Source: Candidatus Nitrosopumilus sediminis (GTDB lineage Archaea > Thermoproteota > Nitrososphaeria > Nitrososphaerales > Nitrosopumilaceae). Taken from it: a stretch of DNA of 64,000 nt. The first letter of the stretch is position 1. Every line of letters begins with the position of its first letter. The notes below the pieces were generated by a model. That model was not told where the DNA came from and searched no databases. It was given only the letters and a program-made list of their open reading frames with translations. The DNA is taken from assembly GCF_000299395.1 (NCBI RefSeq), contig NC_018656.1:1426001-1490000 (forward strand), written 5' to 3'. Positions 44,814 through 49,882 of the stretch are shown in pieces. The position numbers and the translations under genes are program-made.

Positions 44814-45470
44814 TTACACTTTACGATAATTCAAAACTAGATGATTTTTGAGCCTCTTAATTGATTTGAGTTGAAGATTAGGGGATTTTGAGATTTTATC
44901 AAACCCATCGCCTTGAATAAGGGATATTGCGTTTTTTCCACCAACTAAAAAAGGAGAAATTGTAATTATTAATTCATCAAAAATATTTTGTTTTACAAAT
45001 TCCCAATTTACAATTCCACCACCTTCAACAAGAATAGTTCTAATTTTTTTTTCTGCTAGCTTTTTCAAAAGAGATTTTATATTTACAGATTTTTCTCCAG
45101 TAATTATTACTTCAACAGGAAATTTGTTTAGTTTTTGAAGATTAGTTTTTGTGATTTGTTTAGATGTTGCAATTATTGTAGGAATCTTGTTGGATGTTTG
45201 TAATATTTTTGATTTTGTTGATATTTCACCTTTAGAATCAAGAATTATTCTAATCGGATTTTTTCCTTTAGTATAGCGTACAGTAAGTAAAGGATTGTCT
45301 TTCATTACAGTGTTTTTTCCAATTAGTATTCCATCAACTTTGGTTCTTAGTTTATGGAGTCGAACAAAATCTTCACTTGAAGAAAGATTAGAATTTCCTG
45401 TCCTAGTAGCAATTTTTCCATCAATAGAAATTGCTGCACTAAGAATTACATATGGTTTAGATTTTTCCAT
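44814..45470 (-). CDS. arfC: 2,5-diamino-6-ribosylamino-pyrimidinone 5'-phosphate reductase
   Basis: 218 residues of the RibD C-terminal reductase/RIB7 family. S-A-A-I-S-I-D-G-K-I-A-T-R-T-G, V-D-G-I-L-I-G-K-N-T-V, P-I-R-I-I-L-D-S and V-E-G-G-G-I-V-N-W bind NADPH and the ribosyl substrate. It reduces the ribose side chain to ribityl, the second or third archaeal riboflavin step. Last gene of the riboflavin run; the start overlaps the amidohydrolase stop by 14 bp. Confidence 0.9.
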   Translation of the reverse strand: MEKSKPYVILSAAISIDGKIATRTGNSNLSSSEDFVRLHKLRTKVDGILIGKNTVMKDNPLLTVRYTKGKNPIRIILDSKGEISTKSKILQTSNKIPTIIATSKQITKTNLQKLNKFPVEVIITGEKSVNIKSLLKKLAEKKIRTILVEGGGIVNWEFVKQNIFDELIITISPFLVGGKNAISLIQGDGFDKISKSPNLQLKSIKRLKNHLVLNYRKV

Positions 45471-46647
45471 GAATTATTTTTCCTCCAATCATTACAGCTT
45501 TTATTGTAGATTCAGATGCTCTATGGACAATTGACGCATATGGATTATGCATTGGTTCTAAATCTAATGCATGTTTATCTAGAAAAATACAATCGGCAAT
45601 TTTTCCAGATTCAATTACTCCAATATTTTTATTTAATATTTTTCCACCATTTACTGTAGCCATTTTAAGAATTTCTCTTGCATCAATTCTTTTTTTATGT
45701 AATCCCATTGTTACTTTCCAAATGAAATCCATTTCTCGAAACATATCTGGAGAGTTTATCATTACATTATCTGTGCCTAATCCTATTGTACAACCAGATT
45801 TTTGCATTAATTCAATATCAGGAATTCCTTCAGCAAGGGATGAATTTGCTCGAGGACAAATTACAATTCCTCTTGTTTTTTTAGATGCCATTTGAAGATC
45901 AGATTTTGAAGCATAAGTCATATGAACTAAAAAATCAGGTTTCAGAGTTAATGCTCTCATTGTCTCAGATTTTCCTGAAATTTTTTTTGATTTAGTATTA
46001 CTTTGTTTTGTTTCAGCAGAATGTATTGCTTTAATTTTAGATATTTTTGAATAATAATTCAATACCGATGTGCTATTTTCATTTGCACCGCTAATTCCAA
46101 TACCATCACATTTTTTTATCAGTTTAAGAAATTCAGTAGATTTTATGCTTGGAAAAGCTGAATTTTTTTTAATTTCTTTATCCCCCTGATAAAATTCTAA
46201 ACGTCCTAAAATTATTGAACGTAAAGGGACATCATCTAGTACTTTTTTCAATAAAAGGACCCCATCCAATCCACCTTCCCTAAAGTCAACAAAAGTGGTG
46301 ATCCCTTTTCTAATCATAGAATAACACGTATTTTTCATAAAATTTCCAAGATTCTCATCAGATGTGTTTTTAAGGATTTTTGATTTGGCACCAAATACAG
46401 GATGAATTTTTTCATTAACTGTTTTGTTTAAAGAAATATCTTTCCCAATTGAATCTCCAATATGTGTATGTGCATTTATGAATCCAGGGATCATTAGCAA
46501 TCCTTCACAGTCGATAGATTCTTCTTTTAGATTTGGTTTAATTTTTGATTTAATTTTTTTGAATTTATTATTTTGAATTTCTACATCAGTATCTGAAATA
46601 AAATCTAAATCTTGACCGGATAAAATACTGATATTTTTAATCAACAT
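45457..46647 (-). CDS. Amidohydrolase/deaminase inside the riboflavin operon
   Basis: 396 residues of the TRZ/ATZ amidohydrolase superfamily (guanine, cytosine, SAH deaminases). Metal ligands: N-A-H-T-H near 60-64, H-S-A-E-T near 203, H-M-T-Y near 238 and L-G-T-D-N near 295. The composite beta-sandwich N- and C-termini (G-V-I-E-S-G-K-I-A-D) are present. It overlaps arfA by 7 bp and arfC by 14 bp. Its place between two riboflavin enzymes suggests that it deaminates the pyrimidine intermediate, a step whose archaeal enzyme is, to my knowledge, not settled. An S-adenosylhomocysteine deaminase is the alternative. Confidence 0.82.
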   Translation of the reverse strand: MLIKNISILSGQDLDFISDTDVEIQNNKFKKIKSKIKPNLKEESIDCEGLLMIPGFINAHTHIGDSIGKDISLNKTVNEKIHPVFGAKSKILKNTSDENLGNFMKNTCYSMIRKGITTFVDFREGGLDGVLLLKKVLDDVPLRSIILGRLEFYQGDKEIKKNSAFPSIKSTEFLKLIKKCDGIGISGANENSTSVLNYYSKISKIKAIHSAETKQSNTKSKKISGKSETMRALTLKPDFLVHMTYASKSDLQMASKKTRGIVICPRANSSLAEGIPDIELMQKSGCTIGLGTDNVMINSPDMFREMDFIWKVTMGLHKKRIDAREILKMATVNGGKILNKNIGVIESGKIADCIFLDKHALDLEPMHNPYASIVHRASESTIKAVMIGGKIIHGKI

Positions 46648-47393
46648 GATAATTCATAAACTTCAGGTTTTTCTTTGCCTGAATCTCGAATTTCTCTTAT
46701 AGTATCAAGGGATTTTGTGGCTAATTTTACGGCCTTCCTTCCAGTATTTGCATTACCTATCCCACAATTCAAAGAAATTTTATCATTATTTTTTACCATG
46801 TTGATAAAATCTTGTACAGATTTTTTTGCATCATCATTTGAAATTACCATAAAATTATCACCACCCATAAAAAATGTGAGAGAATTTTTTTCTAAAAAGT
46901 ATTTAGACATCTTTGAATACAATTCAAAGATTATTGAGGATATTTCATATGGGGAATCGGTTTTTCTTCTCGAAGTAAGATCATCTACATCTAAATGCAT
47001 TATGGAGACTTTGGAATCCAATTTTCCATTAATAAAACCAAAAATATTATGTTCATTGTTTAAAATGATTTTATTTTTTTTTCCTTCATGCGCTTTCAAA
47101 TTTGCTTCAAATGGAGAATTTCCAGTGCCAATAGATATTGTTAATCTAATATCAAATAATTTTTCTAATACTTTTTGGATTTGAACATGATCCTCCAAGT
47201 CCAAACCATTTGAAACCACAAAAAACTCATCAGATCTATTAAGAAAAACTATACAGTTTTTTTCAGAAAATAATTTTTGCACTTCTTTGTATAGGGAAGC
47301 TTGAAGCATTTGGAGTTGGTGTTCCCTATCACTGCCTAAAGTTAATGTCCAAGGGCCATATTCAGTAATTTTTAAGATGCTTAATTGAATCAT
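46641..47393 (-). CDS. arfA: GTP cyclohydrolase III
   Basis: 250 residues, two GGDEF-like halves. I-T-E-Y-G-P-W-T at the N-terminus, M-H-L-D-V-D-D-L-T near 128 and F-M-G-G-D-N-F-M-V near 172 hold the metal-binding acids. It opens GTP to the formylamino-pyrimidine and starts archaeal riboflavin synthesis. Overlaps ribH by 4 bp and the amidohydrolase gene by 7 bp. Confidence 0.92.
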   Translation of the reverse strand: MIQLSILKITEYGPWTLTLGSDREHQLQMLQASLYKEVQKLFSEKNCIVFLNRSDEFFVVSNGLDLEDHVQIQKVLEKLFDIRLTISIGTGNSPFEANLKAHEGKKNKIILNNEHNIFGFINGKLDSKVSIMHLDVDDLTSRRKTDSPYEISSIIFELYSKMSKYFLEKNSLTFFMGGDNFMVISNDDAKKSVQDFINMVKNNDKISLNCGIGNANTGRKAVKLATKSLDTIREIRDSGKEKPEVYELSC

Positions 47394-47806
47394 TTTTGGA
47401 TCCTTTTCAATTCTTCAGATATTTTTACAACAGCTTCAACAGCACGTTCTGCTACAGGTCTAATCCTAGCATAAGCATGTCTTTCTTGCATTCCAGGGCC
47501 AGATATTCCTAAAGAAACAGGTTTTTGATATTTTAATGACAAATCAGTCAGAGATCTTGCTGCTGCATGAGATATTACCTCATCATGTTTTGTTTGTCCT
47601 TTAATGATAGCGCCCAAAGTGACTACAGCATCAACATCTTTTTTGTTCAATAATGAATCTACAATTATAGGCATATCATAGGCTCCAGGTACCATGGTAA
47701 TATATGAGATTTTTAGTTTCATGGAATCTGCTTTTTCTTTGGCCACAGAAAGCATTCTAGATGTCACTTCTTCATTGAATTCCGAAACCACTATTGCAAT
47801 ATTCAA
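47390..47806 (-). CDS. ribH: 6,7-dimethyl-8-ribityllumazine synthase
   Basis: 138 residues. V-V-S-E-F-N-E-E, V-P-G-A-Y-D-M-P, V-T-L-G-A-I-I-K-G-Q-T-K-H-D (with the catalytic His) and P-V-S-L-G-I are diagnostic. It condenses 5-amino-6-ribitylaminouracil with dihydroxybutanone phosphate. The riboflavin order ribC-ribB-ribH-arfA-amidohydrolase-arfC is tightly packed. Confidence 0.93.
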   Translation of the reverse strand: MNIAIVVSEFNEEVTSRMLSVAKEKADSMKLKISYITMVPGAYDMPIIVDSLLNKKDVDAVVTLGAIIKGQTKHDEVISHAAARSLTDLSLKYQKPVSLGISGPGMQERHAYARIRPVAERAVEAVVKISEELKRIQK

Positions 47807-47808
47807 AA

Positions 47809-48474
47809 CTAATTCACCTTAGCGTATTCTAAAAGTTCTTTTCCATTAACTAATGGAATCCCATTTTCCTTTGCAAATTTTTCAGCCTTTTCTACAGATA
47901 ATGCAGCATAAGTTTCTGCATCCATCATTTCACATATGGCAGTTACAGGAGTCAAACCTGCAATCTGCGCTAAATAAACAGACATTTCTGTATGTCCTTG
48001 ACGTGCAGCTAACAAACCTTTAGATGCAATCAATAACGGTACATGTCCTGGGGTTTTAAAAGAAGATGCAAATTTTTTCTGTCTATTTTCAACATTGTAG
48101 ATTTTTGCCATCTCACTAATTGTCAATGACCTATCTTTGTCAGTAATTCCAGTGTACGTCTGATAATGATTAACAGATAATGAAAAGGTAGGATGATCAC
48201 CGTAGGGTGCTAAACCCATAATCATTTCTTTATTTGAAATTGAAGATTCTGAAAGAATTTCATGCATATATTGTAGTTCCAAAGAAGCTGCAAAGTTATT
48301 ATCAATTGCAATACATAATAATCCACCAGCATGTTGACGCATTCTTGCAATATGTTCAGGCGTAACAAATTCTGCTGCTACAACCATATCAATTTCATTC
48401 TCCCTCCCAGCAGAATCAAATAACAAAACAAATTCTCCACGCTTTAAAGATTGTAATGCAGATTCAAGAGACAT
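47809..48474 (-). CDS. ribB: 3,4-dihydroxy-2-butanone 4-phosphate synthase
   Basis: 221 residues. G-R-E-N-E-I-D-M-V-V-A-A-E-F (metal-binding acidic loop), M-R-Q-H-A-G-G-L-L-C, T-P-G-H-V-P-L-L and R-Q-G-H-T-E-M-S-V are the RibB motifs; no GTP cyclohydrolase II domain is fused. It makes the four-carbon riboflavin precursor from ribulose 5-phosphate. ribH follows 2 bp later. Confidence 0.93.
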   Translation of the reverse strand: MSLESALQSLKRGEFVLLFDSAGRENEIDMVVAAEFVTPEHIARMRQHAGGLLCIAIDNNFAASLELQYMHEILSESSISNKEMIMGLAPYGDHPTFSLSVNHYQTYTGITDKDRSLTISEMAKIYNVENRQKKFASSFKTPGHVPLLIASKGLLAARQGHTEMSVYLAQIAGLTPVTAICEMMDAETYAALSVEKAEKFAKENGIPLVNGKELLEYAKVN

Positions 48475-48551
48475 ATAAAAAAACTCGTTAATCTAATTAT
48501 AAAGTTTACTAAAAAATTGGTAATTACCACTAAATTTGTAGATAATTGGCT

Positions 48552-49136
48552 TTATTTTAGAATATATTTTCCGAGAATGTCAGTTTCAATATTAACTTTA
48601 TCGCCTACTTTCTTGGTGTGGAAATTTGTTACTTCAATAGTATGAGGAATCAGTGACACAGATGCCAATGAATTTTTAATATCAACCACAGTTAAACTAA
48701 TTCCATCTACTGCTATAGAGCCTTTTTTTACAACAAATTTTGATAATTTTTTTGGAACTTCAAACCAAACCTGAACTTCTTTAGGTTTTTTTAGAATTTT
48801 TTTGATTGTTCCCACTCCGTCAACATGTCCTAAAACAAAATGACCTTCTAATCGATCACCTGCTTTTAAACTTCGTTCAATGTTTACGATACCACCAACT
48901 TTCAAATTCCCAAGATCTGTTTTTTTGGTAGTTTCTTCGATCATTTCAAAAATACAATTTGATTTTGAAAGTTTTGTTGCAGTCAAACAAACTCCATTTA
49001 GAGCAACACTTTGTCCAATTTTTAGTCCCTTTGCATGTTTTCCTAAATTTATTGTCATCTCAATTGCACTTCTATTTTTAGTATTTTTAGAAATTTTTTC
49101 TACTTTACCAATACCCTCAATTATTCCAGTAAACAT
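48552..49136 (-). CDS. ribC: Riboflavin synthase (bacterial-type, alpha chain)
   Basis: About 194 residues from the ATG at 49136, chosen because M-F-T-G-I-I-E-G is the invariant N-terminus; the ATG at 49151 would add five residues. It has two lumazine-binding repeats with G-Q-S-V-A-L-N-G-V-C-L-T and G-H-F-V-L-G-H-V-D-G-V-G, then G-S-I-A-V-D-G-I-S-L-T-V. Thaumarchaea use this bacterial type rather than the archaeal RibC. It is first in the riboflavin run. Confidence 0.93.
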   Translation of the reverse strand: MFTGIIEGIGKVEKISKNTKNRSAIEMTINLGKHAKGLKIGQSVALNGVCLTATKLSKSNCIFEMIEETTKKTDLGNLKVGGIVNIERSLKAGDRLEGHFVLGHVDGVGTIKKILKKPKEVQVWFEVPKKLSKFVVKKGSIAVDGISLTVVDIKNSLASVSLIPHTIEVTNFHTKKVGDKVNIETDILGKYILK

Positions 49137-49180
49137 TATTGATTCTATCATGTATGTGTATAAAATTATTTAGATAAATG

Positions 49181-49882
49181 TTATTTATTATATTTTTCAA
49201 ATTCTTCTTCACAAAATTGATGAAAAACGGAGCATTTGTTTTCTTTGGCGCTGTTTTTGATTTTTTCCATGTCTTTGTTAAGAACTCCCTGGGCAGCTAA
49301 AAATGCATCATCAGACATACCTAATTTTTCAAATAATCGAGATTTTGCAAGTGGAATTTCTTTCAAGTTTGAATCAATTACTTGAGCCATGTCATAGTAA
49401 CTTATTGCATCTTTGTATTTTCCTAGATGACTTAGGGAGATTGCCTTATTCATCAATGCAGTAACATCATTGGGATCTATTAACAGAACCGTATCATAAT
49501 ATTCCAATGCATTTTGATGTCGATTTAATTCATTAAGTGACAATCCCATGCTGTTTAGAGCCCAAATATCTTTGGGATCAACGTCAAGAATTTTTTGACA
49601 CAATTCTAAGACTTTTTCATGTTGTTTCAAATTTTCTAGGGCATAGATCTTATTTTTTAATGCATATGTATCTGAATTTTTTATTTTTAAAACCTTATCA
49701 CAATAAATAATTGCCTCATCAAATTTTTGCAAATAAATCAATGACAATGAAATATTTTGTAATGCAACCATATCATTTGGAATTTTTTCTAGTAAATTTT
49801 TGCAATATTCATACATCTCATCATATTTTTGAGCATTAAACATTCTAGTTATCACGTTTGAAGGATCAAGAAGATCAACCAT
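49181..49882 (-). CDS. Tetratricopeptide-repeat protein
   Basis: 233 residues. Five TPR-like units of 34 residues from about 14 to 185 (for example A-L-N-S-M-G-L-S-L-N-E-L-N-R-H and A-L-E-Y-Y-D-T-V-L-L-I-D-P). The C-terminal tail has cysteines (N-K-C-S-V-F-H-Q-F-C). It is probably a protein-interaction scaffold; no partner is evident. Confidence 0.8.
   Translation of the reverse strand: MVDLLDPSNVITRMFNAQKYDEMYEYCKNLLEKIPNDMVALQNISLSLIYLQKFDEAIIYCDKVLKIKNSDTYALKNKIYALENLKQHEKVLELCQKILDVDPKDIWALNSMGLSLNELNRHQNALEYYDTVLLIDPNDVTALMNKAISLSHLGKYKDAISYYDMAQVIDSNLKEIPLAKSRLFEKLGMSDDAFLAAQGVLNKDMEKIKNSAKENKCSVFHQFCEEEFEKYNK

Follow-up and report, generated by a model that had tools for sequence, protein, structure and literature searches.

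Introduction

The deamination required in riboflavin synthesis is carried out by RibD and, in fungi, by Rib2, and fungi likewise reduce the pathway intermediate before deaminating it. The ring to be deaminated in archaea is a substituted isocytosine, and the isocytosine and guanine deaminases have matching chemistry, as they take the 2-amino group off a 2-amino-4-oxopyrimidine ring. The isocytosine-specific and 8-oxoguanine/guanine deaminases act on free bases.

In archaea, reduction takes place before deamination (PMC13028884, PMC3403918). Three gaps were described in haloarchaeal riboflavin synthesis, with predicted candidates for two of them (Pfeiffer et al. 2021, PMC8305020). According to the citation of Rodionova et al. 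2017 (NAR 45:3785) in that paper, HVO_1235 was predicted for arfB and HVO_2483 (34% to MJ0699) for another gap; the remaining gap without a candidate is the phosphatase, EC 3.1.3.104 (PMC8305020). Since the arfB and phosphatase gaps are thereby eliminated, HVO_2483/MJ0699 would be the predicted deaminase. A preliminary description of the DNA analyzed here had stated that the archaeal enzyme for this step was not assigned, which has to be corrected in view of this prediction as it appears in PMC8305020. A literature search, with most subscription journals outside its reach, retrieved no experimental report of an archaeal deaminase, and as far as the literature searched shows this step is among the last ones on the archaeal route to vitamin B2 and F420 for which no enzyme has been shown experimentally.

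The DNA analyzed is a 64-kb stretch of the genome of Candidatus Nitrosopumilus sediminis, an ammonia-oxidizing archaeon (positions 1426001–1490000, the window). Its riboflavin genes include one for an amidohydrolase, here named AMI, which is predicted with high confidence to encode the enzyme that deaminates the pyrimidine after the ArfC step when archaea make riboflavin (and F420).

Results and Discussion

Organization of the Riboflavin Gene Cluster

The cluster comprises the following features:

44814–45470, minus strand: arfC, 2,5-diamino-6-ribosylamino-pyrimidinone 5′-phosphate reductase, stand-alone, without a RibD deaminase domain (TIGR01508)
45457–46647, minus strand: AMI, amidohydrolase, proposed 2,5-diamino-6-ribitylamino-4(3H)-pyrimidinone 5′-phosphate deaminase (NF005552/PRK07213, Amidohydro_1)
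46641–47393, minus strand: arfA, GTP cyclohydrolase III (GCH_III, PF05165, E 9.1e-51)
47390–47806, minus strand: ribH, lumazine synthase, TTG start (TIGR00114)
47809–48474, minus strand: ribB (TIGR00506)
48475–48551, minus strand: intergenic gap of 77 bp separating ribE from ribB, including an AT-rich, TATA-like stretch (read by eye)
48552–49151, minus strand: ribE, bacterial-type riboflavin synthase (TIGR00187)

The AMI reading frame is intact, begins with ATG and encodes 396 amino acid residues. The gene order on the minus strand, ribE-ribB-ribH-arfA-AMI-arfC, confirmed the location of AMI within a riboflavin operon given in the preliminary description, and the overlaps with arfA on one side and arfC on the other that it had reported were measured as 7 and 14 nt, respectively. 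The ribH and arfA genes overlap by 4 nt. The ArfC assignment was obtained with a TIGR01508 score of 205 bits (cut-off 186). Because of the TATA-like stretch in the 77-bp gap downstream of ribE, the genes ribB-ribH-arfA-AMI-arfC may form one putative transcript starting in this gap. A gene for a TPR-repeat protein (49181–49882, same strand) is found 29 bp upstream of ribE.

The window operon contains ribE and lacks ribC. The clusters of another family of the phylum (f18) contain matches to the ribE model used in this work together with a ribC-like (DMRL-synthase-related) gene; the genes labelled ribE in four of these loci (L040, L047, L048 and L055) may belong to another family.

Family and Fold of AMI

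AMI matched Amidohydro_1 (PF01979) with an E value of 7.9e-41, and its best curated match was NF005552/PRK07213, named “chlorohydrolase”, whose cut-off of 294 bits it passed with 329.4 bits over nearly the full length. The name presumably derives from a distant similarity to triazine hydrolases, and no function for this family was found in the literature search. At E ≤ 0.001, a threshold that admits paralogues too, NF005552 also had matches in the control genomes of M. jannaschii and H. volcanii, and the family cut-off was exceeded in two unspecified genomes among the 14 controls. AMI and MJ0699/HVO_2483, which was predicted for the same pathway gap to judge from PMC8305020, are likely members of the same family. 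The present finding is therefore strong support for an existing prediction and not a first sighting; what it adds is the operonic evidence from the window gene.

No dCMP/cytidine deaminase domain was found in AMI by Pfam, and the creatininase family (PF02633/NF033501) was found neither in Pfam nor among the best 25 of 52 NCBIfam matches. RibD and Rib2 belong to a cytidine-deaminase-type family unrelated to AMI, and such a domain is neither present in AMI nor fused to ArfC.

The AlphaFold2 model of AMI (pLDDT 94.1, pTM 0.93) is a (beta/alpha)8-barrel with PDB matches at probability 1.00. The nearest folds were those of adenosine/SAH deaminases, triazine hydrolases and the isocytosine-specific deaminase Vcz, followed by guanine deaminases, and the same structural neighbours were obtained for a modelled homologue from another family. 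By profile comparison the closest PDB entry was TM0936 (2.8e-35). The isocytosine-specific deaminase Vcz and the 8-oxoguanine/guanine deaminases show the same fold and metal ligands as AMI, at 16–19% identity. This aminohydrolase deaminase fold, with the conserved catalytic set described below, is in agreement with the guanine/SAH-type deaminase family to which the gene had previously been ascribed. The genome encodes three other Amidohydro_1 proteins (urease alpha, one adenine-deaminase-like and one dihydroorotase/allantoinase-like), so that the Amidohydro_1 search of the genome placed no protein other than AMI in the SAH/guanine-deaminase-like branch.

Since AMI belongs to the same superfamily as the SAH deaminases, and TM0936 and Pseudomonas adenosine/SAH deaminases are among its nearest folds, it could be a SAH, methylthioadenosine or 5′-deoxyadenosine (DadD-like) deaminase located in the operon by chance. 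This is highly improbable: AMI scored far under the cut-offs of the SAH, 5′-deoxyadenosine, guanine and 8-oxoguanine deaminase families (for 5′-deoxyadenosine deaminase, 111 bits against a cut-off of 522), and in a tree of representatives its clade was split from the paralogues of the phylum with 100/100 support. These SAH-deaminase-like paralogues share the catalytic set of AMI, but they have a different signature and no linkage to riboflavin genes; several genomes (for example G043, G083, G065 and G113) carry both AMI and such a paralogue, and only AMI is linked to rib genes. An SAH/MTA deaminase was accordingly rejected by score, clade, signature and the paralogues' lack of linkage.

Catalytic and Signature Residues

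The metal-binding and catalytic set of AMI consists of H60, H62, H209, E212, H242 and D293, with roles known from the amidohydrolase superfamily, and was invariant in all 57 rows compared, AMI and paralogues included. A second set, D65 (in an HxHxxD motif), K88, E124, R266 and N294, is the signature of the AMI clade and was absent from 16 SAH-deaminase-like paralogues. N268 is kept in the archaeal clade but shared by the paralogues. Bacterial relatives deviate by an R in place of K88, and their N268 position is occupied by H or Q; in archaea, single members deviate at R266. One of these, L164 (genome G071), lacks R266 and is the most divergent clade member, and its assignment to the clade depends on a long branch. 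Homologues on haloarchaeal plasmids fell within the AMI clade and keep most of the signature.

Four basic residues, K88, R266, R149 and R376, are invariant or nearly so in the clade and missing in the paralogues. Judging from the alignment, this suggests an anionic group in the substrate.

Linkage and Co-Occurrence with arfA and arfC

A total of 151 genomes of the phylum were searched with the AMI family, GCH_III, RibD_C and the clade alignment; genomes were called AMI-positive by score and ORF length, backed by the tree of representatives. The AMI clade was found in 62 genomes, 59 of which contain arfA, and all 59 arfA-bearing genomes of the sample contain AMI. In the three AMI genomes without arfA (G018, G097 and G103), arfC adjoins AMI. 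Within two families (f3 and f21), arfA and AMI are both present or both absent, member by member.

The linkage of AMI to arfA/arfC is far above chance. The distance to arfA or arfC is 3 kb or less for 41 of the 62 clade members and 200 bp or less for 38; among the 38 members from families other than that of the window, the corresponding counts are 17 and 14. None of 47 paralogues was linked to either gene within 10 kb. The 21 unlinked clade members belong to f9, f11 and f21, with one each from f15 and f30. Among the best 80 loci in named genomes, 74 were linked to arfA and/or arfC, and one more (L057) to cofG-cofH. The p-values for co-occurrence, 3e-31 (arfC) and 8e-39 (arfA), treat the genomes as independent, and shared ancestry overstates their significance; the weight is carried by the contrasts within families and by the many different gene orders. 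Thus, the linkage on which the preliminary description had made its candidate deaminase depend was found across genomes (59 of 59 with arfA; 41 of 62 clade members linked, against 0 of 47 paralogues), and it is not unique to this genome, since it extends beyond the thaumarchaea to Bathyarchaeota and several further families of this phylum, and to Asgard archaea.

Every ArfC detected in the phylum sample is stand-alone, and therefore no RibD-type fusion supplies the deaminase. Nine genomes contain an ArfC-like RibD_C protein and no member of the AMI clade. No riboflavin cluster was seen around arfC in these nine, and since none of them has arfA, riboflavin may not be made by this route there.

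Gene Orders in Other Lineages

In the family of the window, ribH-arfA-AMI-arfC was conserved in 24 of 24 genomes, with ribB on the far side of ribH in each case where the retrieved sequence extended that far. Other arrangements were:

f18: ribE-ribC-ribH-arfA-AMI
f15 (L043): arfC-arfA-ribB-ribC-ribH-AMI and a creatininase gene
Bathyarchaeota and relatives (L056, L058, L059): ribB/ribC-ribH-arfA-AMI-arfC-creatininase
Asgard archaea (L083, L085): ribB-ribC-ribH-(arfA)-AMI-arfC
f33, f14 and Hecatellales: AMI-arfC-cofG-cofH

The CofG/CofH substrate is 5-amino-6-ribitylaminouracil (PMC8498797). The last arrangement is expected because the product proposed for AMI, once dephosphorylated, is this substrate, a precursor shared with riboflavin.

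AMI accompanies arfC and/or cofG-cofH in loci L036, L037, L060, L057 and L085 (genomes G103, G018, G156, G155 and G153, respectively) and also in G097. No GTP cyclohydrolase III or II was detected in these six genomes (G018, G097, G103, G153, G155 and G156), and GTP cyclohydrolase II, considered as the entry enzyme of the arfA-less genomes, was discarded on these grounds. A DUF447/flavin-reductase-like gene (L036:8905-9549) is located directly upstream of one of the AMI-arfC-cofG-cofH clusters.

Creatininase Genes and the Missing Step

For one creatininase-annotated protein, BrbF of Sinorhizobium, deformylase activity is proven (PMC9478397). No creatininase is encoded within the 64-kb window, so that the absence of an ArfB-type deformylase noted in the preliminary description holds for the window; it does not extend to the genome, which has a creatininase-family candidate elsewhere. 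This only creatininase-family gene (G000:C1:160472-161107; L005:1462-2184), outside positions 1426001–1490000, likely encodes the deformylase; it scores nearer to the MftE/creatininase models than to NF033501 ArfB. A gene adjoining it resembles formyltetrahydrofolate deformylase (read by eye).

AMI itself might be thought to have the ArfB function, hydrolyzing the formamide made by ArfA in place of a creatininase-family ArfB, as it directly follows arfA in a window without ArfB and amide hydrolysis is possible for amidohydrolases. Such a deformylase role is very unlikely. A creatininase-family protein was found in 61 of the 62 AMI genomes, that of the window included, and therefore AMI is no stand-in for a missing creatininase, even if some creatininases may not be deformylases. 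The creatininase gene is moreover clustered beside AMI in L056, L058, L059 and L043, AMI has an HxxE aminohydrolase layout with ring deaminases as its nearest folds, and it is retained together with arfC where arfA was not detected. AMI as a substitute for ArfB was rejected on the basis of this co-occurrence and the shared clusters.

In the full Bathyarchaeotal operons and in L043, the deaminase and the phosphatase are the only steps without another gene. AMI fits the deaminase and not the phosphatase because of its metal-dependent aminohydrolase fold. The candidate deaminase of the preliminary description is thus supported, the linkage having been found and the deformylase and SAH deaminase alternatives fitting badly.

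Proposed Reaction

In the proposed mechanism, a single divalent metal with H60, H62, H209 and D293 as ligands would activate a water molecule, which would attack C2 of the isocytosine ring of 2,5-diamino-6-ribitylamino-4(3H)-pyrimidinone 5′-phosphate. E212 and H242 would shuttle protons, and ammonia would leave to give 5-amino-6-ribitylaminouracil 5′-phosphate. The ribityl phosphate, presumably still present during deamination, would probably be held by K88 and R266 together with R149 and R376.

A variant of this scheme, whose probability overlaps with that of the main reading, places the phosphatase first, AMI then deaminating 2,5-diamino-6-ribitylaminopyrimidinone. The order of the steps is not fixed by genomics, the phosphatase being itself an archaeal gap (PMC8305020), and most relatives of AMI use free bases or nucleosides; the anionic substrate group that the four basic residues would accommodate argues against this order, which we consider rather unlikely.

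It is likely that in the TACK and Asgard archaea, and probably in the euryarchaea, the riboflavin/F420 deaminase derives from the amidohydrolase superfamily, as a non-homologous replacement of the bacterial and fungal RibD-type enzyme. Its retention beside arfC and cofG/cofH even without detectable GTP cyclohydrolase III or II would imply a further entry enzyme. With AMI, a general prediction is narrowed to one specific protein whose residues of interest are named and which is easily tested and, if the prediction is true, the misleading database name “chlorohydrolase” would be corrected.

Relatives of the clade were found on bacterial-labelled contigs (L087, L098, L106 and L130), with an altered signature and unlinked to riboflavin genes. 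The neighbours in L106, the one looked at most closely, encode an amidohydrolase, a nitrilase-type hydrolase and a luciferase-like monooxygenase, a gene content that suggests N-heterocycle breakdown. With this catabolic context, the wider clade including the bacterial relatives is apparently not entirely riboflavin-specific. The same neighbours would suit a role of AMI outside the main pathway, where it would salvage or degrade pterins, deazaflavins or surplus pathway intermediates. We regard this as very unlikely, as AMI is present in every sampled arfA-bearing genome, small ones included, for which an essential step such as the pyrimidine deamination is a better fit.

In a groundwater “Euryarchaeota” MAG, the AMI homologue (L070:5989-7206) is interrupted by one in-frame TGA, which may represent an assembly error, a pseudogene or recoding.
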